NCBI GenBank assembly: GCA_024655945.1
Contig: JANLFK010000003.1
Coordinates: forward strand, 248,001 to 312,000
Source of the DNA: a candidate division KSB1 bacterium
GTDB lineage: Bacteria > Zhuqueibacterota > Zhuqueibacteria > JANLFK01 > Oleimicrobiaceae
Length of the DNA stretch: 64,000 bases
Direction of reading: 5' to 3'
A model generated the notes under the pieces. The model ran no database searches, was not told the origin of the DNA, and saw only the letters and a program-made list of their open reading frames with translations. Position numbers and translations under genes: made by a program. Of this stretch, positions 17,275-35,564 are shown one piece after another; the first letter of the stretch is position 1, and each line of letters begins with the position of its first letter.

Positions 17275-17297
17275 CTCAATCGGAGCAAACTACCTTT

Positions 17298-19676
17298 ATG
17301 ACCGAGCAGGGTAACAACACAGTCCCGGAATCGCCGTCCAAGATCGAGATACCTGCGGAGTTGCCGGTTTTGCCGCTGCGCGATACCGTGGTGTTTCCTT
17401 TCGTGGCCACGCCGCTGATTGTGGCCAGGCGGCCATCCGTGCAACTGATCGACGATGTGCTGAGTGGCGATCGCTTGCTGGCCCTGGTGGCGCAGCGTAA
17501 GCCCGAGCTCGAGGAGCCGAAGCCAGAGGATATCTACACCGTAGGCACGGCTGCCATCGTGCTCAAGATGCTCAAGTTCCCGGACGGCAGCCTGCGGGTG
17601 CTTGTGCAGGGGATCGAGCGCATCAAGGTGCTGGAGTACTCGTCGTCCGAGCCTTACTACCGGGCGAGAATCAAGGTGGTCAGGGAGTCGTATCGGCCCA
17701 GCACCACGATCGAAGCGCTGATGCGCAACGTGCAGATTCAGTTCCAGAAGATTGTCAGCCTGGTGCCGCACCTCCCTGACGAGCTGCAGGTGGTGGCCAT
17801 GAACCTGCAGGACCCGGGTCGGCTGGCGGACCTGGTGGCTTCCAACATCAACCTGAGCCTGCAGGAGAAGCAGGAAATCCTCGAGCATGCCGACGTCGAG
17901 CGGCGCTTGGAGAGGCTCACTGTCTTCCTCACTCGCGAGCTGGAAGTCTTAGAACTCGGCTCCAAGATCCAGAGCCAGGTGCAGAGCGAGTTGGGCAAGA
18001 ATCAGCGCGAGTACTTCTTGCGCGAACAGCTCAAGGCCATCCAGCAGGAGCTGGGCATCGGCGACGAACGTTCTGCGGAGATCAACGAGCTCCGCAAGGC
18101 AATCGAAGAAGCGAAGATGCCGGAGCAGGCCTATAAGGAGGCGATGCGGGAGTTGGATCGCCTCGCCAAGATGCAGCCCGGCGCCGCCGAGTACACGGTC
18201 TCGCGCACCTACATCGACTGGCTGGTCGCCCTGCCGTGGTCGGTTTCCACCCAGGACAACTTGGACATCGAAGCCGCGCGCAGAGTGCTGGATGAAGACC
18301 ACTACGACTTAGAGAAGGTCAAAGAGCGCATCCTCGAATACCTGGCAGTGCGCAAGCTGAAGCCCGATTCCAAAGGGCCTATCCTCTGCTTCGTGGGCCC
18401 GCCGGGTGTGGGCAAGACCTCCGTCGGGCGCTCCATTGCCCGGGCGCTGGGGCGCAAGTTCGTGCGCATGTCCTTGGGTGGGGTGCGCGACGAGGCGGAG
18501 ATCCGCGGCCACCGCCGCACCTACATCGGCGCCCTCCCAGGCCGCATCATTCAGGGGCTGAAGAACGCGCGCGCCAACAATCCGGTGTTCATGCTCGACG
18601 AGGTGGACAAGATCGGCGCTGACTTTCGCGGTGATCCCTCGTCGGCGCTGCTGGAAGTGCTCGACCCAGAACAGAACTTCTCCTTCTCCGACCACTACTT
18701 GGAGGTGCCCTTCGATCTGTCCAAGGTGATGTTTATCACCACGGCCAACGTCTTGGACACCATTCCCCCAGCGTTGCGCGACCGAATGGAGGTGTTGGAG
18801 TTGCCCGGCTACATCGCCGAGGAGAAACTGCATATCGCCTTCAAATACCTCATCCCGCGCCAGATCGAGGAGAATGGCCTCAAGCCGAAGCACATCACTT
18901 TCACCCACGCCGCCGTGCGCAAGATCATCCAGGCGTATACACGAGAGGCGGGCGTGCGCAACTTGGAGCGAGAAATCGCCTCCATCTGCCGCAAAGTGGC
19001 CAAAGAGGTCGCTGCCCACGGCGACACCAAGCACATCATCACGCCGGACAAGCTGCGGGAGTACTTAGGGCCGGCCAAGTTCTACTCCGAGGTCAAGGAG
19101 CGCACCAGCGAGCCGGGTGTGGCCACCGGTCTTGCCTGGACGCCGGTCGGCGGCGACATCCTCTTTGTCGAGGCGACCAAGATGCGCGGCAATAACAAGC
19201 TTACCCTCACCGGCCAGCTTGGCGAAGTGATGCGCGAGTCGGCGCAGGCTGCGCTCTCCTACGTCCGCTCCCGCGCTGCGCAGTTGGGCATCAGCGAGGA
19301 GGTCTTTGAAAAGCACGACATCCATGTGCACGTCCCCCAGGGAGCCATTCCGAAGGACGGCCCGTCTGCGGGCGTGACCATCGCCACCTCGCTGGTGTCG
19401 CTGCTCACCGATCGGCCTATCCGCAGCGACATCGCAATGACCGGGGAGATCACCCTGCGTGGCAAGGTGCTTCCGGTGGGGGGCATCAAGGAGAAGGTGC
19501 TGGCTGCCCGGCGCGCCGGTATCCGCCACATCATTCTGCCCAGCAAGAATGAGAAGGATTTGGCCGAGATCCCAGAAGAATTGCGCAAGGAAATCACGTT
19601 CTACTTTGTCGACAACATGGATCAGGTCTTGGAGTTGGCCCTGCGCAAGAATGGCCGTTTGCGCTCCCGCAGTTAG
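17298..19676 (+). CDS. lon: ATP-dependent protease Lon
   Basis: 792 residues. Domains in order: N-terminal substrate-binding LON domain ([19 protein letters not shown]), coiled helical region, AAA+ module with Walker A GPPGVGKT at residues 367-374 and Walker [12 protein letters not shown], then the protease domain. The catalytic dyad is Ser690 in DGPSAG and Lys733 in GGIKEK. It degrades damaged and regulatory proteins in the cytoplasm. The ATG at 17298 is chosen over a TTG at 17271 that overlaps the hsp20 stop. A terminator follows at 19704. Confidence 0.98.
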
Positions 19677-19703: not shown

Positions 19704-19729
19704 AGGGCTGTTGTCGCACAGCCCTTTTT
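19704..19729 (+). terminator. intrinsic terminator after lon
   Basis: AGGGCTGT-TGTCGC-ACAGCCCT is a perfect 8-bp stem with a 6-nt loop, followed by TTTT. It starts 28 nt after the lon stop. Confidence 0.85.
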
Positions 19730-19802: not shown

Positions 19803-21236
19803 GTGGCACAGGTGGACTACCGAGAGGTGAGACGGCGCTTCGAGCAAGCTGGCCAGGGACATGTGTTCCGCTTTTGGGAGGAGCTGACCCCCACAGAAAG
19901 AGAGCGACTCTTGAGGCAAGCAGCCGGCATCGACTTAGCCTTCATGCAGGATTTGTGGCGTCGCTACATTCTCACACCCCAGGACCGCTTTTTTAAGGGC
20001 GAGCTTGACCAACCCGACGTCATCCCCATACCGGGCACGCCGGAACAGATGGCGCAAGCGGCGCAGGCACGCCTGCGCGGCGAGGAGGCCCTGCGCACCG
20101 GCCTCGTGGGGGTCATTCTGGTCGCAGGGGGACAAAGTTCGCGCTTAGGACAGCCTTATCCTAAGGGACTACTGCCCATAGGGCCCATTACCGGCAAGAG
20201 CCTGTTGCAGTTTCACGCCGAGAAGATTTTGGCCATCAGCCGGCGTGTCGGGAAGCCCATCCCCTGGTACATCATGACCAGCGAGACTACCCACACCGCA
20301 ACAGTCGCCCACTTTCGGGAAAACCGCTTCTTTGGCCTCCCGGAGGACTCGGTGCACTTTTTCCAGCAGAACATGATCCCCGCCATGGACAGTCAGGGCA
20401 AGTTCTTCTTGGAGGCCCGCGACCGCATCTTTGTCAACCCTGATGGCCATGGCGGGCTGCTTCGGGCTCTCAGCAGAAGTGGCGCCCTTGACGACATGCA
20501 AGCGCGCGGGCTGAAGTGGCTCTTCTACTTCCAGGTCGACAATGTGCTGATCAAGATCTGCGATCCGGTATTTCTCGGCTATCACTTGCGCGAAGGTGCG
20601 GAGGTGTCCGCAAAGGTGCTCCGGCGGCGAGATGGCCAGGAGAAGATGGGCATTGCCGGCAAAGTCGGCGGCAGGCCGGTGGTGATCGAGTACAGCGACT
20701 TGCACGAGGAGCGATTGGCCTCTCTGCTGCCGGACGGCAACCTTCGCTACTGGGCCGGCAGCATTGCCATTCACGTGTTCAATGTCGACCTGCTGGAGCG
20801 GTTACAGGACTCTGGGTTCAGCCTGCCGTACCACGTCGCCCACAAGAAGATCCCCCACCTCGATGCCGCAGGAAGGATGGTGGAACCTAAGAAGGAGAAC
20901 GGCTACAAGTTCGAGCAGTTCATCTTCGATGTGCTACCGCAGGCCCGCAAAGTTGTCTTCATGGAGGTGGCCAGGGGCGAAGAGTTCAGCGCGCTCAAGT
21001 ACTCGCAAGGGACTGACTCGCCGGCCACCGCTCAGAAGGACATGATGCGCCTATGGGCTCGCTGGCTGGAGAAGGCTGGCTGCCGGGTAGCGCGTGGCGC
21101 CGACGGCGACCCTAAGCATCCCATAGAAATCAGCCCACTCCGCGCCTTAGATGCCGAAGAACTTGCCGCCAGCTTGTCCGCCCCGCTTACCATGGAGGGG
21201 CCCATCAATTTGGAGGCGGAAGAGCCTCCCCGGTAG
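19803..21236 (+). CDS. UDPGP-family nucleotidyltransferase (UDP-N-acetylglucosamine pyrophosphorylase-like)
   Basis: 477 residues. The eukaryotic-type UAP/UDPGP signature is clear: LVAGGQSSRLGQPYPKGLLPIG at about residues 102-123, followed by SLLQFHAEKI. Further conserved pieces are FVNPDGHGGLLRAL, YFQVDNVLIKICDP and KKENGYKFEQFIFD. Such enzymes make UDP-GlcNAc, UDP-GalNAc or UDP-glucose from the sugar 1-phosphate and UTP; which one cannot be read here. The GTG at 19803 has AGAGAGG about 10 nt upstream. It heads a run of genes with short gaps, ending in cell-envelope proteins. Confidence 0.88.
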   Translation: MAQVDYREVRRRFEQAGQGHVFRFWEELTPTERERLLRQAAGIDLAFMQDLWRRYILTPQDRFFKGELDQPDVIPIPGTPEQMAQAAQARLRGEEALRTGLVGVILVAGGQSSRLGQPYPKGLLPIGPITGKSLLQFHAEKILAISRRVGKPIPWYIMTSETTHTATVAHFRENRFFGLPEDSVHFFQQNMIPAMDSQGKFFLEARDRIFVNPDGHGGLLRALSRSGALDDMQARGLKWLFYFQVDNVLIKICDPVFLGYHLREGAEVSAKVLRRRDGQEKMGIAGKVGGRPVVIEYSDLHEERLASLLPDGNLRYWAGSIAIHVFNVDLLERLQDSGFSLPYHVAHKKIPHLDAAGRMVEPKKENGYKFEQFIFDVLPQARKVVFMEVARGEEFSALKYSQGTDSPATAQKDMMRLWARWLEKAGCRVARGADGDPKHPIEISPLRALDAEELAASLSAPLTMEGPINLEAEEPPR

Positions 21237-21270
21237 CTTTGACGCGGCCGCTGAAAAGGCCACCCTTGCT

Positions 21271-24200
21271 ATGCATGGTCAGGCACAGACATTCCGACCC
21301 ACGAGGGGACGCTGGCTAAAGGTGCTGGGGCTTGCGCTGGCCCTCTACGTTCTTGCTTTCGTCGTCGGGGGTCTCCTGCTGCGAGTCTTGGTGCCTGCGG
21401 ACCGCCTATCTGAAGCGGTGCTGGCTACCCTTGAACAGAGCCTCGGCCGGGAGCTCTCCGTAGAGAGCATCCAGTTCGGGCTGTTCAGAGGCATCACCCT
21501 CAATGGGGTGCGCATGACCACCCCTGCGGGCGGCGACAGCATCGCGTTCCCAATCAGGAGTGCGACTGCCGAGCGCTTTGTCCTCCACTATCGTCTGCGT
21601 TCCCTTTTCAAACGTCGCCTCGAGATTACGGAGGTCTCCCTGCACAACCCCCGGCTTGAGCTGTTCTTCTCTGGGCCCTCGGCTACAATGCCGGCGGCGA
21701 CGCCCCAAGACTCGTTGCCACGGGCGGTTTCCGTTCCGGTGAGCGTGGCATTGCAGCGGCTGGAAATCCGCGATGCCCACTGCACGGTGACCATCGCCAC
21801 CGACACGTCACGCTTGGAATTCGGCCTCGCTGGGCTCACCTTTGTGGCGTCCAAGCTCTATCTGCCGCGGGGCAAGGGTGAGGCATGGCACCAGGCGACC
21901 GGTAAGATCGCGCTCACGTGCGACAAGGCTCCCCTCTTTTTCCGGCAGGAACTGGCAAGTGCGGGGCGCACAGAGGTGAAGTGCCTTTTGGACTTGCAAC
22001 TGGCCGCGGAGTCGCGCGGGCTCGCGGACGTGGAGGCGAGGCTGCTCATCGCCGCGCACCGGGGGCAGGTCCAGCTGTCGGGCGGCCCAGCCTTCTCGGG
22101 TACCTTGCCATCTGTGGAAATCACCACCACGCTTCGCGGGAACGTGCCCCAAGGGGAGTTTCTTGTGGACAGGCTGAGTCTGGGCCTTGGCGGACAGGAG
22201 CTTCTGGAATGCCGTGGCCAGCTCAGTAGCCTCGGCAGCCAGCCGAAGGTGCACGCGGAGGTGGTAGAGGGCGAGATTTCCTTAGGCAAGCTTCTGGCGA
22301 CCGTGCGGCCCCTCCTCACCGAGACGGCATTCGCCGGCCTGTTGCCCGAGCGGCTCTCCGGGAGGCTTTCTTTTGCCGGCACGAGCCTCGACTGGGCCTT
22401 CCCTTCCCTCGCGGGCGGGAGTTCTTTGGACGCAAATGCTGCGGTGGATCTGCGCGACCTGTCGCTGGTCGTGCGCGACGTAGCGACGGTGGAACACCTC
22501 ACGCTCTCTGCACGGTGGGCCGCATCGGCGGACAGCGCCGGTCTGCGCACGGGAGGAGCCTCTGCCTCGTTGGCCTTTGACCAGGTGAGGTACAATTCGC
22601 CGGGGCTCCCCATGAGCGCTTTCCGGGGGAAGCTGGAGTTGAAGGCACTCGCCGGCGAGCGGCTGAGCTCGTTGATCACGGATTTCACGCTGAAGGTGGC
22701 CAGCCTCATGGGAGGGGAGCTGGAGGGCGAAGTGCATCTGTCAGCAGGCCAGGCCGCTGCAGCCTGGCGCGGCAACGTAGTCATGGCCGTGCGCCGTCTC
22801 CCCTTGGCGCCACTTACCGCAGGACAGGTACGTGGCAGCACCACCAGCTCCTTAGCTGCAAGGGTACGAGGCCTCAGCGACATCGGGCTGGAGCTCACTG
22901 TGGGCGTTGATTCCTTGGCTGCTCTCCTGCAAGGTCGCGAGCAGAGCCTGTCTCCGTTAGAGCTCACCGCGCTCGGCAAGCTGCGCACTAACGTGCGTTT
23001 CGATGCGGTGACGGTGGACTCGTTGTTGCTCCAGCTTGCCGACATGGTTTCGGCGCGCCTGGCAGGAAGCTTTGGGCTCCAGGACGAGCGCTTTTCCTTT
23101 ACTTTGCACGACCTGACGCTCCACCATCGCCCCCTGCCGCGCCTGCTGCCGGTTGAACTTGGCGAGCAGATTGGAGTTATCTCGCTGGCAGGGGCCACTC
23201 ATGTGCGCGGCAGCGCTTCTGGCCAACTACTCCCCGACAACTCTCGTTTTGAAGTGCAAGGTTCCGTAAGCTCTTCTATCGGCGCGTCGCTGCCGGCGCT
23301 GGGGCTGCAGGTATCGGGCGTAAGGCTCGGGGCTGAGCTGGCGATGACGCCCTCCCTTGCCCGGGCCACAATCGAGGCCCGCTTGGATACGGCAATCATC
23401 GCGCAGATGCGGGCGGCGCCTATCACCGGCAGCGGCGCTCGTTTTGAGGTGTCCCTGCCAGAGCTGCAGAGCCTCGTGCTGACGCGAGGTGAACTCTGGG
23501 TGCCGGCCTTTGCCGCAAAGGGAGAGCTGTCCGGTCACATGGCACCAGGTGCAGCAGGGCCAACAGGCGCGGTGGATGTGGCCTTCTCCCTGGACGCGAC
23601 AGACACCGTGCACGTCACGGACACGGTGAGTTTGTTGGGCAGGGTACTGGCCAAGGCAAAGCTGCGCATGGATGGCTCGGTGGCGGGTGTGGAAGGCAAC
23701 ATCTCCATCCCCGGCCTTGCCGTGTATCTGCCAGGGGGGACCTCGCTGAAGGGTATCCGCGCCGCAATCCCCTTCTCTCAGGCCTTTGACCTCCAGCGCA
23801 TGGAGCTTGTCCTGTCACCCCTCGAACGGTACGCTTACTCGGGCCCGGCCGGCGCCTATCCATCGCTCTTCGCCGCCCACTTCGCCGATGCACTGCCCGA
23901 GCAGGGGTGGCTGACCATCGATCGGCTATCCTTTGCCGCCTACGGCGCTCGCAACCTCCGCATGCGCCTCTTTGTCGGCGGGGGCAAGCTCATGGTGCCG
24001 ACCATGCTCCTGGATGCCTATGACGGCAACTTTGGCGGCAGCTTGGCAGTGGAGTTTCCCGCCCTGGATTTGGCGCGGGTGCAGTACAGGGTAGAGGGGC
24101 ACCTGTCCGGGCTAAATTCCGCCCTTCTGGCAGCAAGGAGCGGACAGCCGCTGGAGAAGGGGATTATCAATGCCAACTTCCGCTTCACCGGTACCGGACT

Positions 24201-24522
24201 GGATGTGCAGAAGGGGATAGAGGTCGAGGGGTTCTTTCGCATCACCGACATTGGGCCACGGGTGGCCGACAATCTGCTGCGCTCTCTGGACCCTCAGGGC
24301 CTGGATGCCGGCATTCGCAGCGCGCGCTTTTTCATCAACCACGGGTTCAAGCCGCGCGAGATGTCCTTTGACCTGCGGCACGCCCACCTCTACCCCAGCA
24401 TCCACCTCTCGCAACCCTGGTACTTCCCGGTGCGGGTCGGCGGCGGCAAAGTGGAGCTGGCGCGCATTCCGGTGGCCTTCTTCTTGCAGATGATCAAACA
24501 GGAAGCCGTACCGACGTACTGA
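21271..24522 (+). CDS. AsmA-like inner-membrane-anchored protein
   Basis: 1083 residues. One N-terminal TM helix (about residues 17-38, LGLALALYVLAFVVGGLLL) is followed by a long beta-rich, low-cysteine chain typical of the AsmA/YdbH/TamB/YhdP group. These form periplasmic grooves that carry phospholipids to the outer membrane. The C-terminal part (GGKLMVPTMLLDAYDGNFGGSL, then repeated beta-strands) resembles AsmA_2-type C-terminal domains. The ATG at 21271 is 34 nt after the previous stop and has only a weak ribosome-binding site. The next gene encodes a DUF1318 lipoprotein, as ydbL accompanies ydbH in E. coli. Confidence 0.82.
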   Translation: MHGQAQTFRPTRGRWLKVLGLALALYVLAFVVGGLLLRVLVPADRLSEAVLATLEQSLGRELSVESIQFGLFRGITLNGVRMTTPAGGDSIAFPIRSATAERFVLHYRLRSLFKRRLEITEVSLHNPRLELFFSGPSATMPAATPQDSLPRAVSVPVSVALQRLEIRDAHCTVTIATDTSRLEFGLAGLTFVASKLYLPRGKGEAWHQATGKIALTCDKAPLFFRQELASAGRTEVKCLLDLQLAAESRGLADVEARLLIAAHRGQVQLSGGPAFSGTLPSVEITTTLRGNVPQGEFLVDRLSLGLGGQELLECRGQLSSLGSQPKVHAEVVEGEISLGKLLATVRPLLTETAFAGLLPERLSGRLSFAGTSLDWAFPSLAGGSSLDANAAVDLRDLSLVVRDVATVEHLTLSARWAASADSAGLRTGGASASLAFDQVRYNSPGLPMSAFRGKLELKALAGERLSSLITDFTLKVASLMGGELEGEVHLSAGQAAAAWRGNVVMAVRRLPLAPLTAGQVRGSTTSSLAARVRGLSDIGLELTVGVDSLAALLQGREQSLSPLELTALGKLRTNVRFDAVTVDSLLLQLADMVSARLAGSFGLQDERFSFTLHDLTLHHRPLPRLLPVELGEQIGVISLAGATHVRGSASGQLLPDNSRFEVQGSVSSSIGASLPALGLQVSGVRLGAELAMTPSLARATIEARLDTAIIAQMRAAPITGSGARFEVSLPELQSLVLTRGELWVPAFAAKGELSGHMAPGAAGPTGAVDVAFSLDATDTVHVTDTVSLLGRVLAKAKLRMDGSVAGVEGNISIPGLAVYLPGGTSLKGIRAAIPFSQAFDLQRMELVLSPLERYAYSGPAGAYPSLFAAHFADALPEQGWLTIDRLSFAAYGARNLRMRLFVGGGKLMVPTMLLDAYDGNFGGSLAVEFPALDLARVQYRVEGHLSGLNSALLAARSGQPLEKGIINANFRFTGTGLDVQKGIEVEGFFRITDIGPRVADNLLRSLDPQGLDAGIRSARFFINHGFKPREMSFDLRHAHLYPSIHLSQPWYFPVRVGGGKVELARIPVAFFLQMIKQEAVPTY

Positions 24523-24553
24523 AACAACAAACATTGCGAAAGGAGGACGGCCC

Positions 24554-25135
24554 ATGGCGCGACACATCGCAGCAGCAGTGGTACTGGCCGGCATAGTGGC
24601 CAGCTGCAGTATCCGCGCACCTGAAGTGCAGGTGACCGGCGAGAAGACCGCCTTGGAGAACCAGGTGATCGGCACCTACCAACAGGTGGCCGACGAGAGC
24701 TGGATGATCGCTTCCACGCGGGCGGCAGACAGCGACCAGAAGGCGCAAATGGCCACCGAGAAGAAAGAGGTTCTCGATGCGGTGCAAAACCGCAAGTTCA
24801 ACAAAGACGACATCGACGAGTTCAAGCGGGATGGCGCCTTGGGCGAGAACAATCAAGGTTTTCTGGAGCTCCGTCGCCTGCCCAGACTGGATCAGGACCC
24901 GGAGTATCGTAGCCTGGTGGTCAGGATCATGAACGAAGAGAATCGGGATCGCAAGATCATCTACGATCGGGTCTTGGAGCTCAACCCCAACGCGGGCCGC
25001 GCCGGTACGGCTGCCGTCTATGCGGTCTTTGCCAAGATGAACAGCGAAGAGTCCGTCCCGGGCACCTGGGTACAGGCTGAGGACGGCACCTGGTATCGCA
25101 AAGGCAAGGAGGCTGCCCCCAACGAGAAGAAGTAG
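24554..25135 (+). CDS. DUF1318 (YdbL-like) lipoprotein
   Basis: 193 residues. A lipoprotein signal (VLAGIVASC, Cys 17 modified) is followed by a short segment IRAPEVQVTGEKTALENQVIG. A domain at about residues 75-145 has the YdbL pattern: RDGALGENNQGFLELR, then VVRIMNEENRDRKIIYDRVLEL. In E. coli separate genes encode the lipoprotein YnbE and the periplasmic YdbL acting with AsmA-like YdbH. Here lipoprotein anchor and YdbL-like domain are in one chain. AAGGAGG lies 8 nt before the ATG. 31 nt after the AsmA gene and 9 nt before the CHAT gene. Confidence 0.85.
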   Translation: MARHIAAAVVLAGIVASCSIRAPEVQVTGEKTALENQVIGTYQQVADESWMIASTRAADSDQKAQMATEKKEVLDAVQNRKFNKDDIDEFKRDGALGENNQGFLELRRLPRLDQDPEYRSLVVRIMNEENRDRKIIYDRVLELNPNAGRAGTAAVYAVFAKMNSEESVPGTWVQAEDGTWYRKGKEAAPNEKK

Positions 25136-25144
25136 CGGCAATAC

Positions 25145-28100
25145 ATGAGCTCAGTGCGGCGCGACATATTCTCCGTTCTGCCTCTGCTGTGGCTTCTGGC
25201 GAGCCCACCGCCGTGCGCTCTGGCGGGCGGGCAACCGCTGCTGCCTCATCAGGTGACCACGCACCCTGCAGACGATTTGAGTCCTGCCCTTTCTCCTGAC
25301 GGCAAGTGGGTTGCGTTCACCTCCACGCGCAGCGGCAACCAGGATGTGTGGGTGCGGCCAGTCCATGGTGGCAAGGCGTACCAGATTACCACCCACCAGG
25401 CGGACGACTATTGCCCGGCCTGGAGTCGCAATGGTGACCGCCTGGTTTTTGTGTCCAAGCGTTCCGACGCGGCCGGCGACATCTGGATGGTGGAGCTTCG
25501 CCGCACAGGCAAGGCGATTCTTGCCAGGGGCGAACCAGTCAGACTGACCGACTATTTGGGCGAAGATGCCTTTCCCTCCTTTTCGCCCGACGGCACGGAG
25601 GTGGCCTTCTGTTCTGACCGCACCGGTCGGACGGAGATCTGGGTGCTGAGGCTAAAGCCGAGGTCCCTGACCCGGGTGACCTGGCAGGGCGGAAAAGAGC
25701 CCAATTGGTCGCCCGACGGGACATGGCTCGTCTACACCGCTTTCGATAGTCTTCGCCGCAACGGTACCATCGCCGTGACCCCCGCGCACCCGGACAGTCG
25801 GCCAGAGCTGCCCAAGGAAGTGCCTATCACCGATGGCTCGTGGTTCGATTGCCAGCCGGCTTGGTCGCCCACAGGCCACGAAGTTGTCTTCTGCCGCTTC
25901 CCCTACGACACGAATCACGACGGCAGAATAACGCCTGACGACAATCCGGTAATCGTCCGGGCGGCGGTGAGCCTGCCCTCGTCCCCTTCGCAGCTTCCTT
26001 CCGCTCCGCGCGAGCTGCAAGTGTGGCTCACCAGTGGTACGGATTTCGCCTTCGGCCCGAACTGGGCGAGCGGCGAATTGGTGTGCTACGCCTCCGATCG
26101 CAGCGGCAACCTGGACATCTGGGCAGTGCCTGCAGATGGGCTCATCCCTCGCCATGCATCGGCCATGGGGCAGCTGTCCTATGCGCGTGACGCTTTTCCC
26201 CTCCCCGCTTCGCCCCTTTCAGCCTTGTCCGCGCAGCAGAGGACGGGTCTTTACGAACGCCTGTTGGCCCTGCGGCGGGTGCGTGACTTTTTTCCGGCGG
26301 AACGGTCCTTCGTGGCCTTGGCCACCTTGGAGATGGCGCGCACCTACCGCGCACTTGGGGACGAAGCCATGGCACGTCAGGCGCTCCAGGAGCTGGAGGC
26401 GGAGTTCGCCGAGCAGGAGGAGGCGCGTGTTTTGGCGGCCGTGGAGAACATCGACATGGACATGGCCGAAGGGAGGATCGATTCCCTCGCTGCAATGCGC
26501 GCCTTGGCACGCCTTTTGGAAGTTCACCGATCTCAACCGCAGCTGGCGGTGCCCATTGCCATGCGCTTGGGCGGCCTGCAATTTGCCGCCGCTCAGTACG
26601 GGGAGGCGCTCACCTCCTACGGTTGGGTGCTGCAGCAGCAGGGCGCAGACCGCGAGGCGGCGGCCGAAAGCCAGCTGCGCATTGGCGACTGCCTTGACGC
26701 CCTTAGGCGCGAGGAGGAGGCAGAACGCGCCTACGCTCTGCTGGTGGACCGCTATCCTGAGCAGGAGACGACGGCGGCGCAGGCTATGGAGCGTCTGCTG
26801 CGGGAGAGGCAGCTCGCCGGCGACCGGCTGGCACTCTTGCGCCGCTGCCGTGAGGTGAGCAGCGCCTACCGCCTGCGCATGCCGCGCGTCGCGGCCTTTG
26901 CACAACTGCGCGCAGCAGAGCTTCTCCTGGCGGCCGGCGACTTCGAGGCGGCCCAGATTGAGCTGGCAGCCCTCCAGTCCGACTTTCCCGACCAGCGCAC
27001 GCTGGTCGCCCGCAGCCGATTACTCCTTGCCAAGGCCTACCAGGACGGTGGCGACTGGCGCAAGGCAGTGAGCGTTCTTCAACAGGCACAGGCAGAATTC
27101 GACACGGTTGCCGGAGGTCGTTGGGCAGAAGCGGCACGGCAGGCACTCTTCCGCGCCCTCATGCAATCTGGCGAGCAGCTACTCCAGGCCGCCTACTTTG
27201 CGCTCGCCGCAGCCCGCTATCGCCAGGCGCTGGAAGTGGCACCTAACGACATCGAGGCCCACCGCGGCTACATCCAGGCGCAGTACTACGGCCGAGCGAT
27301 TGACCAGGCCACCCGCGAATACCAGGCACGCCTGGTGCAACACCCCGATGACCCGCTGCTCCTGTACTGCCTGGGCCTGTGCCTGTCCTTCAAAGCCACC
27401 GAGCAAGCGGAGCTCTATGGCCACCAGGGCAGAATCGACCCTGAGCTCCTGGCTCGCTCCAATAGCCTCCTTGACAGGGCCCTGGAGGCCGACTATCGGA
27501 TGGTCTACGCCTACCTGACCAAGAGCTACAACTACGAGATGTTAGAGACCTATGACCGCCTGCGTCGCAGCAGACCGCAGACCCTCCCGCGAAGGGTCCT
27601 TGAGGCGATCTCGGCGCCGCTTGTTTCGGTGCTCAGAACGGTCACCATGGCCAAGGAAGAGGCCCAGGTGGGCAATTACGAACGAGCCATCGATGCACTC
27701 ACCATTGCCCTCGGCCTCAATGACGAAAATGAAAACCCAAAGTTGGAGGCCCGCCTCTGCCGCAACTTGGCGAACAACTACTACAACCTGGCCGAGTTCG
27801 GCTACCAAAAGGCCTACGAGTATTACCACCTCGCCCTGCGGTTTGATTCGACCTTCGCGAGCCGCCGGGATGAAGCAGTGATGATGGAAAGGATGGGCCA
27901 CTGCGCGTTGGTGGTGGAGGACTTTGAACGGGGGCCCACCTACCTGCGCCGCGCCATCGACTTGTACCGCGACCTCGGCAGAGAGGAGCTGGTGCTGCTC
28001 AACATAAAGCGGCTGGCCATGCTCTATCAGATGGCAGAGGACTATCTCTCGGCTGCCGAGTACTTTGAACAAGCCGTCGCCATGGAGACGCGGCGCGGTA

Positions 28101-31100
28101 ACCTCGGGGAGGTGCAGCGCCTCCATCGCAATCTCGCTTACAACTACTGGCTGTTGGGCGAGCCAACCGACGCCTACACGCATGCCATTCGCGCCCGTGA
28201 CCTTCTGGACAGCGGCAAGCTCAAGGAGGCCAAGGGCACATCCTCGCGCATCCAGGTCGGCGTGCTGGGGTGGTACGTCCCCATTCCCTTTGTCGATCTG
28301 AGCAAAATGGGGGCAATTGGCGGCAGCGCAGCCTTCGGCTTCACTACCGTCGAGGAACGAGCTCTGGTCTACACGATCCTCGGCAACATCTTAGTGGAGA
28401 CGAAACGCTACGAGGAAGCCATCCGCGAAAACGTGAAGAAGCTTGCCCTCTACCGCAAGCGGAAAGATGTCCGCGCTGAGGCAGCGGTGCTCAACAACCT
28501 CGGCTATCTACAACTGCTGAAGGGGGATCCACTGGGCGCTTGGCAGCAGTGCGAGCGCAGCTACGACCTTTGCCTGAAGCAGAAGGTGGTAGCCGGCGTG
28601 GTCGTCAACGCCATCAATCTTGGCCAACTGGCGCTGCTCCTTTCGGATCCTGCCCTATGCGATGCTGCTGCAACTCGTCTGGACCGCGCGTTGAGTTTCA
28701 CGGAGGGGCAGTCGCGGGTTCTCGTGCAGCGGCGCGCCCAGCTCCTCAACCTCCTCGGCGCCCTCACCTTGGAGCACCAAGCCCAGCGCGCCGCGGAGGC
28801 CGATTTTCAGGATTCCCTGCGCCACACTGTGGAAATATTCCAACGCGCCGGCTATGCGCAGACGTACTTCGAAGAAGCGCTCAACCTCAGTCTGCGGCGG
28901 CGGCTGCCGCGCGAAGAGGCCCTTTCCAGGATGAATTTGGCGCGCTGTTGGGCCGTGCTCGGCGAATGGGAGCACGCCGCTCTTCATCTCTTGCAGGCGC
29001 GTCGCCTCTGCCAGACCAGGGGGTATGGCGACCTGCTCTGGCAGGTCAACCAGGGGCTCGCCGAGCTTGCTGACCGCCTCGATGAACGGGCCCGGACCGA
29101 TTTAAGACTCAGCCCCCCACGCGTCTACTTTGCCGAGGCGCTCACCGAATTGCGCGCGGCGAGCGAGGCTGGCATCACCCGTCTGGTGCTCCCCATGGAA
29201 CGCAGCCGCCACCGCCAACTGTACGAGGAGTATGCATTCCATCTGGCGACCATCGGCGATACGCTTGGCGCTCTCCAGGCTGCAGAGGAGCTGCGGGCCC
29301 AGGCTTTCTTGGATGCCACCTCAGGGGAGGCCATTCGCCTAAGCAGCCCCACGCGCACCAATCTGCTCAACTGGGTGCGTACCTTTCGGGAGGAGTTAAC
29401 CGCCTCAGAGCTCAAGGTGCGGCAGCTGAGCGCCGTGCTGCAGCGGAACGCCCCCGAGCTCATCAGGTGGCGCGCAGCGCAAGACAGCCTCCGCCGCGAA
29501 TACGAACAGGCATTGGCACGACTCCGCCAGGAAGCGCCTGCACTGGAAGCGCTGGTGACAGTCCACTCCCCCTCGTTGGCGGCCGTGCAGCATGCCCTGG
29601 AAGGCGACGAAGTGGCGTTGGCCTTCCTGGTGGGCGCCCGACACACGCTGCTCTGGGCAGTCACTCCCCGGCGTGTAGCCATGTTCCGCATTCCCACTGG
29701 CGCCGAAGGGATCCGCCAGCTCACCGAAGGCTTTCTCAAAAGCTCGCCAGACGACAGCTCGCGCCAAATGATAGCCAGGCTCTTCATGCCTGCGGCGGGC
29801 CTGCTCCGAAGAGCGCGCCGGGCCATCATCGTCCCGGATGGCTTTCTTTTCCGGTTGCCGATGCAGGCGGCAGTGCTGGCGTCGTTGGGCCAGGAGGCGC
29901 CAGCGGTCACTGTCTGCTCCAGCCTGAGCAGCTACGTGCTTGCCGCAAACCGCCGCACAGTCGGTGGCCCAGTCGTTTTCCTCGCCGACACGCTCCTGCA
30001 ACACCCGCTGCAGGAGCTCGGCTACGAGGTCGTCTCCCTCCCCAGATTGCCGGGTAAGGAAACGCAGGCACGGGAGGTTTCCCAGGTCCTTCTGGGGAGC
30101 AACATCGTGCACTGGCGAGCCACCTGGCAGTGGCAAGAGACAGCCCCGCTGCACTCGGCTCTGCAACTCGCCGATGGGCAGGGGGGCTTTACGCTGCGTC
30201 TGCTGGATCTTTTCGAGGTCATCTCCAACGCGACCGTGTGCGTCATAGACGGAGGGGAGACGGCCGCGTACGGGTCGGCTGCGCAGTTGGTTGACCGCTT
30301 GCTGGCACTGAGTGGCAGCGCTGCAGGCTTGCTGGTGGGCGACGAAACATCACCCGAGGCACGTCTTACCTTCTACGAGGCATTCTACCGCCAGCTCCTG
30401 GAGAAACCTCCCGCCGAAGCCTTCCGTGCCGCGGTGCAGGCGGCTATAAAAAAGGGCATGGGCAATCTGTCCGCCCAACTGGTGGGTTACGGCGGCATGA
30501 GCAGGGTTGAGGCCAGCACCTATGCCGAACGCGCGCTGGCCGGCAAGGTACGAGCAGGGCTGCAGGCAGAGCAAGACAAGGACTGGGGCGACGCGGTACG
30601 GTTCTACGAGGAGGCTTTGGCCATGGCCACCGCGCGCCAGGACAGCGCGAGCATCCAGCGCCTCCGCCTGCTGATCGTGCGCGCCTCTGCCAGCGGCGGC
30701 CTTGTGCGCAAGACCATTCAGTACCAGCGCTTGCTGGCCGCCGAGGCCGACCGCAAGGGAGATCCGCAGCTCCAGGTGCGGCGCTCCCGCAATCTCGCTT
30801 CGCTCTACGCCCAGGCCGAGGACTATGCTGCGGCCATTGCGGCGATGGAGCACGTCAGAGAGGTTGCGAGCAGCTCTCAAGAACAGCTGTTACCTGAGCT
30901 GCACCGGGAGTTGGGGATCGTGCACGAGCGGGCCGGGCATTATCAGGCCGCCCTGGAGCAGTACGAGGCCTCGCGCGCCCTGTATGCCGCGGCGGGCGCC
31001 AGCGAAGGTCAAGCGCTGAATCTGAGCGACATGGGGCGCGTGGCCCTGCGCTACCTGGAAGACTACCCCCTGGCCCTCCAGCACTTGTCCGCTGGCCTTG

Positions 31101-33412
31101 CCCTCTTGGAGGCGCAGGGCCCGTCCGCAACGCTGGTGGAGGTGCTGAACAACCTGGGCCTCGCCCACGAAATGATGGCCGACTACCGCGCAGCCGTCGA
31201 CGCACAGCGCCGTGCCAGAGAGCAGGCGGAAAGACTCAAACTTCCGGACAAGGTGGCCTTGTGCGAACACTACCTTGCCAACCTTGCCTGGAAAATGGGT
31301 GACTATCAGGAAGCCCTGCAGCACAACCGGCGGGCCTTGCAGGCCTTCGAAAAACAGGGCGACTTGTCCCTGCAGGCACTGGCCTTAGCGACCCGGGGCC
31401 TCATTCAGCTGAGCATCGGCAACGCACCGCAGGCGTTGCGCGACCAGCACAACGCCTTGGAGATAGCAATTCGCACCGGCGAGCTCCTCGACCAGGCCAC
31501 CATTCGCAAAAACATCGGGCTGGTGCACGTCACCTTGGGCGAGTATGAAAAGGCGCTGGTGGAATTCACCGCTGCCGCCCACCTCGACAGCACTATCGGT
31601 AGGCAACGAGGCCTGTCCTATGACCTGCGCAACATGGGTGCCCTGTTGCTGCAGAAGGGGCAATTGACAGGGGCCGACGAATCGCTGCGGGCAGCCCTGA
31701 CCCTCAGCAAGGAGGTTGGCGACCGCCGTAACGAAGCGCAATGCCTCTACTACATTGGGGCGGTGCGGCGCGCGCAGCGGAACAGGGAACAGGCTGTCCT
31801 TTACCTGGAGCAAGCAGCTGCTCTTGCGCGCTCCCTGTTCGTCCCAGAGGTGGAATGGCGGGCGCTGCACCAATTGGGTCTGTTGCAGCGGGAAGCGCGC
31901 CGTCTCGAGGAAAGCCGCGCCAGCCTGCTGCAGGCGGTGCAGGTCGTCGAACAGATGCGCGCGCGCATCAAGGTGGCCGAGCATCAGGCAGGCTTCATCA
32001 ACGACAAACAAGAGGTCTACGCCGACCTTATCGACCTGCTGATTGAGATGGGCCGTGACGAGGAGGCTTTTGCCATCGCCGAACGAGCTCGCTCACGCGG
32101 CTTCTTGGACATGCTCGGCAACCGCCAGCTCGCCTTCGGTGCGCGCACCAGCCAGGAGTTGTACGATGCGCTTACCGGCGTGGAAGCGCAGATGCGCAAC
32201 GTGCAAGAGGAGATCGCCCGCCTGCGCAGCGTAGAACCAGAACAAGCGAGCGCGGCGCAGAAGGAACGATTGCAACAACTGAGCGCAGAACTGACCAAGC
32301 TGCGCAGCACCTATGAGAGCCAGCTGATCAGGCTCAAGGAATCAGATCCTCGCCTGGCAGATATGGTCACCGTCGACCCCTGGCCGCCATCACGTGTGCA
32401 GGCGCTGTTGCCCCCAGGCGTGGCCGTGGTGGAGTACTTTGTCGGCAAGGATCGTCTGTTCATCTGGCTGGTGACCAGCGCGACGCTCAAGGCCTGGGCA
32501 ACACCGCTCGGCCAAGAGGAGCTCTACAAGGAAGTGGGCCAGGTGCGCCAGGCAATCAGCCAGCTCTCCACCGTGAGGCAGCGCAGTGCGCGGCTGTGGC
32601 AGGCGCTCATCGCGCCGGCCGCTCCCTCGCTGCAAGGGGTCTCCACTCTGGTCATCATCCCGCACGGGCCTCTGCACTACTTGCCCTTTGCCTGCCTGGT
32701 GGACCCGCAGGGCCGGTATCTGATAGAGACTTTTTCCTTGGCAACCGCGCCCAGCGGCACCGTACTGGGCATGTGCATGGAGGGCGGAAGCCGGTTCCTC
32801 TCCACGCCACGCCAGGAGTTCCGCGTGCTTGCCTTGGGCAATCCCACACTGCCAGGCCAGCCGCGGCCCCTCCCCATGGCAGCCAAGGAGGTGGAGAGCA
32901 TCTCCCGGAGTTTTGCCAAGGTGGACAAGTTCCTCGGCACCTCTGCCACCGAGACGGTGGTGAAAGCTGCTCAGAGCCCGTACGATGTCTACCTCTTCTC
33001 CTGCCACGGCGAATACGATTCCGCCAACCCTCTGTTTTCGTCACTCCTGCTGGCGCCCGACAAGGAGAACGACGGGCGGCTCGAGGCACGGGAGGTCTTC
33101 TCCTTGCGCCTGGAGAGCTATCTGGTGGCCATGAGTGCCTGCGAGACGGCGCTGAGTTCCATTGCCGGTGGCGATGAGATCATTGGCCTCACGCGCAGTT
33201 TCGTCTTCGCCGGGGCCTCTTCGTTGTTCGCCAGCCTGTGGAAAGTCGATGACTTGGCCACTGCGGTCATGGTGAAGCGCTTTGTGCGGTACTTGGCGGA
33301 GGGCGAAAGCAGAGCCCGGGCGCTGCAGCGCGCCCAACTGCTCGTGATGAGCGAGGTCAATGCCCATCCGGCCTACTGGGCAGCGTTCCAGTTGATAGGG
33401 GACTTCCGGTGA
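25145..33412 (+). CDS. giant secreted PD40-TPR-CHAT protein with an inactive first CHAT domain
   Basis: 2755 residues. Order: signal peptide (about 1-27); six PD40/TolB-like propeller repeats (about 35-330, such as SPDGKWVAFTS, SPDGTEVAFCS), with a DTNHDGR calcium-type loop; a long TPR array (about 360-1330); a first CHAT-like domain (about 1470-1790); a second TPR array (about 1800-2320); and a C-terminal CHAT domain (about 2410-2755). The last has the caspase-like dyad His2621 (SCHGEY) and Cys2666 (MSACET). In the first, Trp1661 and Gly1704 stand where His and Cys should be, so it looks catalytically dead. CHAT is a clan CD cysteine peptidase fold usually regulated by attached repeats. The export signal puts this one outside the cytoplasm. 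Substrate unknown. Confidence 0.93.
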   Translation: MSSVRRDIFSVLPLLWLLASPPPCALAGGQPLLPHQVTTHPADDLSPALSPDGKWVAFTSTRSGNQDVWVRPVHGGKAYQITTHQADDYCPAWSRNGDRLVFVSKRSDAAGDIWMVELRRTGKAILARGEPVRLTDYLGEDAFPSFSPDGTEVAFCSDRTGRTEIWVLRLKPRSLTRVTWQGGKEPNWSPDGTWLVYTAFDSLRRNGTIAVTPAHPDSRPELPKEVPITDGSWFDCQPAWSPTGHEVVFCRFPYDTNHDGRITPDDNPVIVRAAVSLPSSPSQLPSAPRELQVWLTSGTDFAFGPNWASGELVCYASDRSGNLDIWAVPADGLIPRHASAMGQLSYARDAFPLPASPLSALSAQQRTGLYERLLALRRVRDFFPAERSFVALATLEMARTYRALGDEAMARQALQELEAEFAEQEEARVLAAVENIDMDMAEGRIDSLAAMRALARLLEVHRSQPQLAVPIAMRLGGLQFAAAQYGEALTSYGWVLQQQGADREAAAESQLRIGDCLDALRREEEAERAYALLVDRYPEQETTAAQAMERLLRERQLAGDRLALLRRCREVSSAYRLRMPRVAAFAQLRAAELLLAAGDFEAAQIELAALQSDFPDQRTLVARSRLLLAKAYQDGGDWRKAVSVLQQAQAEFDTVAGGRWAEAARQALFRALMQSGEQLLQAAYFALAAARYRQALEVAPNDIEAHRGYIQAQYYGRAIDQATREYQARLVQHPDDPLLLYCLGLCLSFKATEQAELYGHQGRIDPELLARSNSLLDRALEADYRMVYAYLTKSYNYEMLETYDRLRRSRPQTLPRRVLEAISAPLVSVLRTVTMAKEEAQVGNYERAIDALTIALGLNDENENPKLEARLCRNLANNYYNLAEFGYQKAYEYYHLALRFDSTFASRRDEAVMMERMGHCALVVEDFERGPTYLRRAIDLYRDLGREELVLLNIKRLAMLYQMAEDYLSAAEYFEQAVAMETRRGNLGEVQRLHRNLAYNYWLLGEPTDAYTHAIRARDLLDSGKLKEAKGTSSRIQVGVLGWYVPIPFVDLSKMGAIGGSAAFGFTTVEERALVYTILGNILVETKRYEEAIRENVKKLALYRKRKDVRAEAAVLNNLGYLQLLKGDPLGAWQQCERSYDLCLKQKVVAGVVVNAINLGQLALLLSDPALCDAAATRLDRALSFTEGQSRVLVQRRAQLLNLLGALTLEHQAQRAAEADFQDSLRHTVEIFQRAGYAQTYFEEALNLSLRRRLPREEALSRMNLARCWAVLGEWEHAALHLLQARRLCQTRGYGDLLWQVNQGLAELADRLDERARTDLRLSPPRVYFAEALTELRAASEAGITRLVLPMERSRHRQLYEEYAFHLATIGDTLGALQAAEELRAQAFLDATSGEAIRLSSPTRTNLLNWVRTFREELTASELKVRQLSAVLQRNAPELIRWRAAQDSLRREYEQALARLRQEAPALEALVTVHSPSLAAVQHALEGDEVALAFLVGARHTLLWAVTPRRVAMFRIPTGAEGIRQLTEGFLKSSPDDSSRQMIARLFMPAAGLLRRARRAIIVPDGFLFRLPMQAAVLASLGQEAPAVTVCSSLSSYVLAANRRTVGGPVVFLADTLLQHPLQELGYEVVSLPRLPGKETQAREVSQVLLGSNIVHWRATWQWQETAPLHSALQLADGQGGFTLRLLDLFEVISNATVCVIDGGETAAYGSAAQLVDRLLALSGSAAGLLVGDETSPEARLTFYEAFYRQLLEKPPAEAFRAAVQAAIKKGMGNLSAQLVGYGGMSRVEASTYAERALAGKVRAGLQAEQDKDWGDAVRFYEEALAMATARQDSASIQRLRLLIVRASASGGLVRKTIQYQRLLAAEADRKGDPQLQVRRSRNLASLYAQAEDYAAAIAAMEHVREVASSSQEQLLPELHRELGIVHERAGHYQAALEQYEASRALYAAAGASEGQALNLSDMGRVALRYLEDYPLALQHLSAGLALLEAQGPSATLVEVLNNLGLAHEMMADYRAAVDAQRRAREQAERLKLPDKVALCEHYLANLAWKMGDYQEALQHNRRALQAFEKQGDLSLQALALATRGLIQLSIGNAPQALRDQHNALEIAIRTGELLDQATIRKNIGLVHVTLGEYEKALVEFTAAAHLDSTIGRQRGLSYDLRNMGALLLQKGQLTGADESLRAALTLSKEVGDRRNEAQCLYYIGAVRRAQRNREQAVLYLEQAAALARSLFVPEVEWRALHQLGLLQREARRLEESRASLLQAVQVVEQMRARIKVAEHQAGFINDKQEVYADLIDLLIEMGRDEEAFAIAERARSRGFLDMLGNRQLAFGARTSQELYDALTGVEAQMRNVQEEIARLRSVEPEQASAAQKERLQQLSAELTKLRSTYESQLIRLKESDPRLADMVTVDPWPPSRVQALLPPGVAVVEYFVGKDRLFIWLVTSATLKAWATPLGQEELYKEVGQVRQAISQLSTVRQRSARLWQALIAPAAPSLQGVSTLVIIPHGPLHYLPFACLVDPQGRYLIETFSLATAPSGTVLGMCMEGGSRFLSTPRQEFRVLALGNPTLPGQPRPLPMAAKEVESISRSFAKVDKFLGTSATETVVKAAQSPYDVYLFSCHGEYDSANPLFSSLLLAPDKENDGRLEAREVFSLRLESYLVAMSACETALSSIAGGDEIIGLTRSFVFAGASSLFASLWKVDDLATAVMVKRFVRYLAEGESRARALQRAQLLVMSEVNAHPAYWAAFQLIGDFR

Positions 33413-34725
33413 ACACGATGGATAGAGAACCGTCGCAAGTCATGGCGCATGGCGTAACCATCCGGTCTCGCCTGCAATTGCAGGCAATCGAGGAACGTGT
33501 GCTTGCCCCTTATGCGGCGCGCTCATCGCAAGGAGAAACGACCCGCTTGCACCCGGAAGAGCCGCATCCTTATCGCACCGCCTTCCAGCGTGATCGCGAC
33601 CGGCTGGTGCACTCCCGTGCCTTCCGGCGGCTGAAGCACAAGCGCCAAGTGTTCCTCACCGACGAGGGCGACCACTACCGCACGCGCCTCACGCACACGC
33701 TAGAGGTCTCACAGTTGTCGCGCACCTTAGCCAAGGCGCTGGGGCTCAACGAAGAGCTGGTGGAGGCGATCGCTCTTGGCCACGACCTTGGCCACACCCC
33801 CTTCGGCCATATAGGCGAAGTGGTCTTGGGCAAGATCATGGCCGGCGAAGACACGCTGGACGGCCTCCTGACCTCGGGACCCTTAGGTGGCTTCAAGCAC
33901 AACTACCAGAGCCTGCGCGTGGTGGACTACATCGAACGCAAGTACGCGCGCCCCGGGCTGAACCTGACCGCACCGGTGCGCGAAGGCATTCTCAAGCACA
34001 CGCGACTGCAAGAGGGGATAGACTACCCCAACTTTCAGAGCGAGGGCCTCTCCCTGGAGCAGGAGGTGGCCGGCACCTTGGAGGGACAGGTAGTTGCCAT
34101 CTGCGACGAGATCGCGCAACACACTCATGACCTGGAAGACGGCATCCGCGCCGGCTTTGTCGCGCTCGAGCAGGTGCGCAAGGTGGGCATTGTCCAACGC
34201 CTGGAGCACGAGCACCGCATCGACGCGCTGTGCGAACGCGACCCCTTCCTCTACCGTAACCTGCTCATCAAAGCCCTGATCGATGCCCTCATCTCCGACC
34301 TCCTGCACACTACCGTCCGAAACTTGGAGCGCATAAGGAGGAAGGGGCCTTTTCCCAAACGCTTCACGCAGGTGGTCGTGCACTTTGGCGAGGAGTTGGA
34401 GCCGCTCCACCGCGAACTCGATGAGTTTGTCGACGAAGAGATCATCTATCACGCCTCCATCTATCGGGCCGACGATGTGGCGGTGCGCACCATCCGCGAA
34501 CTGTTCAAGTTCTACCTTCGCTTTCCGTCGCAACTACCTGAGTATGTGCTGGGCCGCATCTCCTGTCGGGAGAATCGAGCGCAATTGGTGCGCGCAATCT
34601 GTGACCACATCGCGGGAATGAGTGACAACTACGCCCAGACGGAATTGACCCGCGTGGAACAGATCGTGCGCAACATGGACGAGAGCCGCCCGCAAGGAGC
34701 CGCCAGCGACCAGGAGCTCGCGTGA
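33409..34725 (+). CDS. deoxyguanosinetriphosphate triphosphohydrolase-like protein
   Basis: 438 residues, HD superfamily. Motifs in order: RDRDRLVHSRAFRRLKHKRQVF, RTRLTHTLEVSQ with the first metal His, the HD pair in LGHDLGHTPFGH, and AICDEIAQHTHDLEDG with the last Asp. Bacterial Dgt-like enzymes hydrolyse dNTPs to the deoxynucleoside and triphosphate. The GTG at 33409 overlaps the CHAT stop (GTGA) with AGGGGA upstream; an ATG at 33418 is an alternative. Coupling to the CHAT gene is probably positional rather than functional. Confidence 0.92.
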   Translation: MNTMDREPSQVMAHGVTIRSRLQLQAIEERVLAPYAARSSQGETTRLHPEEPHPYRTAFQRDRDRLVHSRAFRRLKHKRQVFLTDEGDHYRTRLTHTLEVSQLSRTLAKALGLNEELVEAIALGHDLGHTPFGHIGEVVLGKIMAGEDTLDGLLTSGPLGGFKHNYQSLRVVDYIERKYARPGLNLTAPVREGILKHTRLQEGIDYPNFQSEGLSLEQEVAGTLEGQVVAICDEIAQHTHDLEDGIRAGFVALEQVRKVGIVQRLEHEHRIDALCERDPFLYRNLLIKALIDALISDLLHTTVRNLERIRRKGPFPKRFTQVVVHFGEELEPLHRELDEFVDEEIIYHASIYRADDVAVRTIRELFKFYLRFPSQLPEYVLGRISCRENRAQLVRAICDHIAGMSDNYAQTELTRVEQIVRNMDESRPQGAASDQELA

Positions 34726-35564
34726 GGCTGACCCTCGACAACGTCTCCTACCGCTACCGCCAGGCAGGACCCGCTAGCCGCTTGGCACTTGACGGCGTGA
34801 GCCTTGAAATCAAGGAGTGCGAGTTTGTCGCCTTGGTGGGGCCGAGTGGCTCAGGCAAGACCACCCTCATCCAGCACTTCACTGGCCTGCTCCGCCCAAG
34901 CGCCGGACGTGTACTGGTGGATGGCCAAGAGCTCCCCGAGCGTGGGCCTGCCCTGACCGCCTTGCGTCGGCGCATCGGGCTGGTATTCCAATCTCCGGAG
35001 CTGCAACTTTTCGAGGAAACGGTTTTCGAGGACGTGGCCTTTGGGCCGCGCAGACTGGGTCTGCCGGAACAGGAAATTGCGGCGCGCGTGGACTGGGCCC
35101 TGCGAGCAATGGGCCTTGACCCCGCAGCATTTGCCTCGCGCTCCCCTCACCGGCTGAGTGAAGGGGAGAAACGCCGGGTAGCAGTGGCCGGTGTGCTGGC
35201 GATGGACCCGGAGATGCTTGTCTTGGACGAACCCACCGCCGGCATGGACCCGGCAAGCGTACGGAGAATTGCCGACATTCTCGAGAATCTGCACCGGGAG
35301 GGTAAAACCATCGTCCTTGTGTCCCACAATATCGACTTGGTCTACCGCCTGGCGCAGCGGGTGATCGTCCTTGTGGCAGGGCGGATGGTGCTCGACTGCC
35401 CAAAAGAAGAGCTCGTCGCCCACGAGGCCCTCCTCGTGCGCCATGGCTTGGCATTGCCACGTCTGTTGCGCGTGCTGCGAAGAAACCCGCCGCCGCTGCC
35501 AATTGACCTGCGCCAGCTTCTCTCGGTGGAGGCAGTGGAGCAAGCGCTGCAGAACTTGAAGTGA
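34722..35564 (+). CDS. ECF/CbiO-type ABC transporter ATP-binding protein
   Basis: 280 residues. Walker A GPSGSGKTTL, Q-loop LVFQSPELQLF (the ECF-typical Q-SPE-Q-LF form), signature LSEGEKRRVAVAG, Walker B MLVLDEPTAGMDP and H-loop VSHN. This is the ATPase of an energy-coupling-factor uptake system for a vitamin or metal. No EcfT or substrate-binding S component lies in the window, so its partners must be elsewhere. GTGA overlap with the dGTPase gene. Confidence 0.9.
   Translation: MRLTLDNVSYRYRQAGPASRLALDGVSLEIKECEFVALVGPSGSGKTTLIQHFTGLLRPSAGRVLVDGQELPERGPALTALRRRIGLVFQSPELQLFEETVFEDVAFGPRRLGLPEQEIAARVDWALRAMGLDPAAFASRSPHRLSEGEKRRVAVAGVLAMDPEMLVLDEPTAGMDPASVRRIADILENLHREGKTIVLVSHNIDLVYRLAQRVIVLVAGRMVLDCPKEELVAHEALLVRHGLALPRLLRVLRRNPPPLPIDLRQLLSVEAVEQALQNLK

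Follow-up and report, generated by a model that had tools for sequence, protein, structure and literature searches.

A conserved trio of genes for an AsmA-like protein, a DUF1318 lipoprotein and a giant propeller-TPR-CHAT protein as a probable three-part envelope module

In the window, the whole 64,000-nt stretch of DNA from a candidate division KSB1 bacterium that was analysed here, genes for an AsmA-like protein, a DUF1318 lipoprotein and a giant propeller/TPR/CHAT protein follow one another on the forward strand. The same three genes were found in the same order in several phyla. There is good support for a module of three parts in the envelope, and the three genes probably work as one machine there.

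The gene trio in the window and among relatives

The AsmA-like gene occupies positions 21271-24522 (+; 1083 aa), starting at an in-frame ATG at 21271 inside the open reading frame 21151-24522. It is followed by the gene of the DUF1318 (YdbL-domain) lipoprotein at 24554-25135 (+; 193 aa), the ATG of which is preceded by AGGAGG, and by the gene of the giant at 25145-33412 (+; 2755 aa). The gaps of 31 and 9 nt calculated from the ORF coordinates confirmed the gene string described in the first-pass annotation.

Upstream, a UDPGP-family nucleotidyltransferase gene (19803-21236, +) ends 34 nt before the AsmA-like gene and is probably on the same transcript as the trio. Its conservation next to the trio was limited to several families of KSB1, and it is not a core gene of the module. 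The lon gene (17271-19676) lies before it, and a terminator-like hairpin with a T-run after lon (19704-19725, +) suggests that the transcription unit starts there, the consensus scan that detected the hairpin giving no more hits in total than in shuffled sequence. Since neither lon nor a UDPGP gene was detected ahead of the trio in the loci L112 and L114-L116, we regard the trio itself as the conserved core. Downstream, the gene of a dGTPase overlaps that of the giant by 4 nt and an EcfA-type ATPase gene comes next (33409-35564), the string running head-to-tail with overlaps of 4 nt each. This arrangement was limited to the genus of the window (L035, L036), probably reflecting a recent operon fusion, and the two genes were rejected as members of the module.

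Gene order was compared at those DUF1318 loci for which the sequence reached 800 nt or more upstream and 900 nt or more downstream, after removal of duplicates. This gave 79 evaluable distinct loci: 34 of 37 from the class genomes, 20 of 45 named loci (22 of the 45 were duplicates of the class set) and 25 of 30 from Spirochaetota, the latter 30 being the top-scoring matches in the 46 genomes, out of 120, that were positive. Both AsmA and the giant were adjacent in 42 loci, only the giant in 11, only AsmA upstream in 10 or downstream in 2, and neither in 14. Thus the giant, recognised by its propeller, was located just downstream of DUF1318 in 53/79 loci, and AsmA immediately upstream in 52/79. 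The trio was intact in KSB1, Calditrichota (L100), Zixibacteria (L112) and Spirochaetota (L114, L116 and others), and its order is conserved far above chance. The loci with neither neighbour comprised nine named ones (five titled Delongbacteria), two from the class and three from low-GC spirochaetes, and in these last three a weak AsmA match was present. The earlier proposal of the trio as one unit was borne out, across phyla, by the 42 complete loci. The opposite pattern, in which the CHAT gene of most relatives lies beside unrelated genes and only AsmA and DUF1318 stay together, was not seen, the giant adjoining DUF1318 in two thirds of the loci; the view that only the AsmA-DUF1318 pair is conserved was rejected on the two neighbour counts.

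The genes also occur together. Among 60 class genomes, with thresholds of at least 180 bits for the TPR part of the giant and at least 250 bits for AsmA, the DUF1318 lipoprotein was detected in 38, the giant TPR part in 38 and AsmA in 40; the complete set was present in 35 genomes and wholly absent from 19 (Fisher's test on any of the pairs gave p about 1e-11, uncorrected for shared ancestry). Among the genomes with a partial set, G003 and G043 contain the start of the propeller at a contig end, without a strong TPR match, and G014, G017, G025 and G046 are 56-88% complete. In terms of the families f1-f12, which are the search tool's own labels, all three genes were absent in f5 (7 genomes) and f6 (8 genomes), and in f10 one genus (2 genomes) was without all three and the other 4/6 genomes had all three.

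Where the operon is broken, its parts persist in new pairings. In f8 the giant lies beside AsmA (L117-L119) and DUF1318 is found elsewhere, in L050 and L054 beside a more distant AsmA-like gene. In f3, f9 and f11 DUF1318 and the giant remain paired and AsmA is found elsewhere, and in G064 and G065 a lone DUF1318 gene was observed, with AsmA and the giant at separate places in the same genomes. The giant was not found in 5/5 low-GC spirochaete genomes searched that keep AsmA-DUF1318, from which we concluded that it can be lost and is not indispensable. At the loci L169, L170 and L186 (GC 0.23-0.27) AsmA-DUF1318 was kept and no giant was found adjacent.

Other genes were observed at the rearranged loci. 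A FecR-domain gene is located directly upstream of AsmA in 4/4 f8 loci scanned (L118:7721-8545, L119:6376-7215, L125:9647-10474 and L127:5157-5978), and its product is a possible fourth partner in f8. Directly upstream of the relocated AsmA of f3, f9 and f11 an MscS-type channel gene was found in 3/3 loci scanned (L120:10233-11153, L122:2338-3225 and L123:4934-5833). An ECF sigma factor gene follows AsmA in L124.

The AsmA-like protein and the DUF1318 lipoprotein

The models for DUF748, YhdP, AsmA and TamB matched the N-terminal part of the AsmA-like protein only, all below their cut-offs, and the label AsmA-like therefore needed a structural model. An AlphaFold (AF2) model computed from an alignment of 30 rows reached a mean pLDDT of 83.1. 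It shows an N-terminal membrane helix (residues 12-40), strands nearly throughout residues 61-1047 and a short helix at the end; by the consensus of the same alignment, conservation is highest at the C-terminal end of the protein. The top Foldseek matches were among bridge-like lipid-transfer proteins (LPD-3 with an E-value of 6.5e-7, fragments of Vps13 and Atg2), with low TM-scores (0.14 for LPD-3). With VIA-align the N-terminal fragment of Vps13 was aligned to residues 43-270 of the model over 188 residues (Z 9.6, rmsd 5.3), while beta-barrels and ApoB gave similar or higher Z, as expected for long beta-sheets. The predicted structure thus combines a Chorein-like N-terminal part with a continuous beta-groove that could span the envelope. 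In agreement with the bridge fold suggested in the first-pass annotation, the model and its matches predict a bridge-like lipid-transfer protein, which may move lipids. A separate TamB, another member of the AsmA superfamily, was present in 58/60 class genomes; lipid supply therefore need not depend on the trio, and redundancy is possible.

The lipobox Cys18 of the DUF1318 lipoprotein was invariant in 26/26 relatives in the alignment, and the protein is presumably located in the outer membrane. Pfam DUF1318 was matched above cut-off (2.8e-12 in the window protein) and was present in 26/26 members; the YdbL-like domain covers about residues 84-183. The profile match to E. coli YdbL extended over 85 columns at 95.6%, and PDB 28oj ('Probable chaperone-like protein YdbL') was matched with an E-value of 4.9e-5. 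On these sequence comparisons the domain is homologous to YdbL, as had been supposed.

In E. coli YdbL controls the assembly of YnbE. The parallel to YdbH-YnbE-YdbL that had been drawn for the trio held in part: both operons encode a protein of the AsmA superfamily together with an outer-membrane lipoprotein, in the window presumed to be one, and a DUF1318/YdbL domain, in both the gene order is AsmA and then lipoprotein/YdbL, and the model of the window protein contains the N-terminal membrane helix and a predicted lipid groove. A sequence relationship to YdbH or YnbE was not detectable. In hhalign the AsmA-like family matched E. coli YdbH with a probability of 0.9%, and no YdbH model was among the Pfam matches of the protein; orthology to YdbH was not found. 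For YnbE, hhalign gave 7.6% over 26 columns, mostly signal peptide, and the YnbE family was absent among the family matches of the 26 DUF1318 members; orthology to YnbE was likewise not found. The systems differ further in that a single protein of the window carries both the lipobox and the YdbL domain, and that the propeller-TPR-CHAT giant is added, whereas in E. coli the regulator gene feaR is next, on the other strand. Interaction of YdbH with YnbE in E. coli is dealt with in PMC12977461 and PMC11784454, and redundancy among the three E. coli AsmA proteins in PMC8593681.

Distances between the proteins were correlated over 16-17 genomes. The C-terminal quarter of AsmA correlated with the first TPR region of the giant (TPRA) at 0.87-0.90, and the control, either of them versus Lon or the nucleotidyltransferase, gave 0.60-0.67; the tie between the two is only suggestive. 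The correlations of DUF1318 with its module partners fell to 0.32-0.63 when f2 was excluded and did not exceed that with the control (0.54). They depend on f2 and are hence unreliable.

The giant and the fate of its protease part

Pfam matches in the giant were CHAT (3e-69, in two stretches), PD40 (1.3e-35) and TPRs. An export signal is followed by a TolB-like PD40 propeller (25250-26164, about aa 36-340, from Pfam and a structure-sequence match), TPRA (26225-29554, aa 361-1470), a dead CHAT1 (29567-30604, aa about 1475-1820), a second TPR region, TPRB (30647-32314, aa about 1835-2390), and CHAT2 (32342-33409, aa 2400-2755), all on the + strand. A hydrophobic export-signal core was present in 51/52 giants, as judged by a simple hydropathy scan and not by SignalP. 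The giant opens with a lipobox-like motif in L042, L038, L059, L171, L175, L177, L178 and L114-L116, and on this motif these giants may be membrane-anchored.

CHAT2 contains the catalytic pair, His2621 (33005-33007) and Cys2666 (33140-33142), and CHAT1 is without both: its His and Cys positions are occupied by Thr1660 and Gly1704, and at the latter a Cys was found in 0/27 aligned giants (3 = gaps). The two domains are homologous over their whole length (hhalign 100%, E 2.4e-43), and the CHAT1 assignment rests on Pfam (33.9 bits) and this profile match to CHAT2. Among the fold-library matches listed for the AlphaFold model (residues 1556-2755, pLDDT 85.3), no row covers CHAT1. In its layout the giant resembles a propeller joined to two units of TPR and CHAT, of which the first is dead. 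A dead CHAT before an intact one recalls the pseudo-plus-active layout of separase, but here a TPR region lies between. From its sequence (Pfam CHAT 234 bits for the whole protein) and its separase/Craspase-like fold, CHAT2 is a predicted protease of the caspase/separase type, and in the lineage of the window its active site is intact.

The likeness to Csx29 (Craspase) and separase consists of TPRs followed by a CHAT domain with the His-Cys pair. The nearest solved sequences to CHAT2 were the TPR-CHAT of Csx29; VIA-align aligned 572 residues of the C-terminal model with Craspase TPR-CHAT 8d9f (Z 28.8, rmsd 6.4), and 305 residues of aa 2304-2755 with separase ctSPD 5fby (Z 27.0, rmsd 2.9). In contrast to these proteins the giant is exported, has a propeller in front and an extra dead CHAT, and stands in no CRISPR or cohesin context; with 46.3 bits against the cut-off of 300 it is not a member of NCBIfam Csx29 (NF041237). 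The propeller has TolB as the closest solved structures by sequence (E 7e-17), but is part of a 2755-aa protein, which scored 113.8 bits against the TolB family TIGR02800 (cut-off 343.15) and is not a member. The idea that the giant replaces TolB was dropped: PF04052 was weak in 24/60 genomes, with and without the module, and nothing follows from it. The C-terminal half also resembled the transmembrane anti-sigma factor DdvA (8rot, VIA-align Z 22.6, rmsd 6.4, 622 aligned), although the Pfam matches of the window giant include no anti-sigma family; our literature search found no paper on the DdvA structure. A defence role was rejected, as PADLOC gave only weak TPR and BovA matches in the C-terminal part of the giant and, for the dGTPase, a generic match. 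Elsewhere the window's genome encodes a further CHAT protein, about 609 aa long (G000:C6:206281-207243; L002, L004).

Among 53 giants the His-Cys pair of CHAT2 was intact in 26, lost in 11, and no CHAT2 was recognisable in 7; the other 9/53 were cut off by contig ends. The complete giants therefore number 44, with the dyad intact in 26/44 and dyad or domain gone in 18/44. Some of the dead or short giants could be assembly errors, most likely L087 (1724 aa). On a FastTree tree of the N-terminal part the state of CHAT2 changes at least 5 times, and many giants without dyad or domain still sit in an intact operon. In the complete spirochaete-type giants examined CHAT was always dead or could not be recognised; in L180 and L181 the pair is retained within a variant motif. 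Mean identity in 13 dyad-intact rows was highest in CHAT2 (0.495), followed by PD40 (0.405), TPRB (0.367), TPRA (0.346) and CHAT1 (0.26). In 6 dead rows CHAT2 (0.206) and TPRB dropped to about 0.21, whereas PD40 (0.498) and TPRA (0.354) kept their conservation. The clearest functional hint obtained here is thus that the N-terminal half of the giant serves the conserved unit and the C-terminal half is a separable protease module, strongly constrained in lineages that use it and able to decay in the others. Dyad losses, changes on the tree and the domain conservation pattern led us to reject the view that the operon exists for the CHAT protease. Because 18 complete giants had lost CHAT2 dyad or domain, proteolysis cannot be the core function of the giant, and we read the protease as a lineage-specific, dispensable output.

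A possible lipid bridge with a scaffold or sensor

We lean slightly towards reading the trio as one envelope-spanning lipid-bridge module, with the giant as scaffold or sensor and a separable protease. The AsmA-like protein would be anchored in the inner membrane via its N-terminal helix, and its hydrophobic beta-groove could offer phospholipids a path to the outer membrane. There the DUF1318 lipoprotein might dock or organise the C-terminal end of the groove and so play, in one protein, the part that the YnbE/YdbL pair plays for YdbH in E. coli. The giant would be a periplasmic propeller-TPR scaffold or sensor, lipid-anchored in some lineages, that could use its propeller and TPRA to contact the bridge at the end facing the outer membrane. 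Its TPR-CHAT protease may be switched by the state of the bridge in the window's lineage and have been discarded in others. The regulated lipid bridge of the first-pass annotation is in this sense partly supported. That annotation had left open whether the giant processes, monitors or scaffolds the bridge; scaffold or sensor fits better, and processing fits poorly with the 18/44 giants lacking dyad or domain. A stronger version, in which the bridge carries a built-in separase-like switch, with propeller and TPRA sensing docking or conduction and releasing the protease on an envelope target, is in our view unlikely. With such a switch, the lineages that lost the protease would keep the sensor-scaffold alone.

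The giant could instead act mainly in surveillance, as a periplasmic TPR-CHAT sensor of envelope stress that signals faults in the envelope or the bridge by cutting a partner in signalling, without belonging to the structure of the bridge. DdvA (8rot, 8rw5) near the top of the Foldseek matches of the C-terminal half, the FecR-domain gene at all f8 loci scanned, the sigma factor gene in L124 and CHAT2 being the best-conserved domain where the dyad is intact are in line with this. We nevertheless find it doubtful, as no regulator gene is a constant neighbour and as propeller, TPRA and operon are kept in giants that have no dyad or domain. The same giants bear on direct processing, in which CHAT2 would cut the lipoprotein or the AsmA tip and so control the bridge. 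The shared gene string, the intact dyad and the strong constraint on CHAT2 in dyad-intact lineages agree with this, but the operon persists with a dead or missing CHAT2, and cleavage is therefore not required for bridge function there; we regard direct processing as highly improbable.

A TamB-like role of the AsmA protein in outer-membrane protein assembly or secretion, with the giant as chaperone or protease for the clients, would account for the weak TamB match in the N-terminal part of the AsmA-like protein and for the quality-control-like combination of a TolB-like propeller with a TPR solenoid and a protease. It is quite unlikely given that nearly all class genomes encode a separate TamB and that the module contains a YdbL domain, which in E. 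coli is part of a system for lipid homeostasis. We give almost no credence to the view that the genes are neighbours with no shared function, in an old order that chance or co-expression has preserved. Although lon and the nucleotidyltransferase likewise remain adjacent in several KSB1 families, the trio is present in L112 and L114-L116, where these genes were not found upstream, and its genes still persist together in the same genomes after separation.

Our literature search found no publication on the AsmA-DUF1318-giant trio. To our knowledge the docking and control of bacterial lipid bridges are largely open, with E. coli providing one lipoprotein case. The present data show that AsmA and YdbL are also partners in KSB1, Calditrichota, Zixibacteria, Delongbacteria and Spirochaetota, name a giant propeller-TPR protein as a frequent third partner, and describe a caspase-like domain that behaves as a module, retained in some lineages and dropped in others, while the envelope scaffold carrying it is conserved. 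Were the protease-switch reading true, we would know of no earlier exported caspase-like protease that is wired to intermembrane lipid transport. In a spirochaete the giant shares an operon with an AsmA protein from the hypothetical LIC_11026 family, named after a Leptospira locus, which makes the module testable in a saprophytic spirochaete of the laboratory. The trio at L175 consists of this AsmA, a member of NCBIfam NF047499 with 1106.9 bits (cut-off 325), DUF1318 and a 2676-aa propeller giant with a lipobox start. The window AsmA scored 17.4 bits against the same cut-off; the two share superfamily and gene order but belong to different family models.
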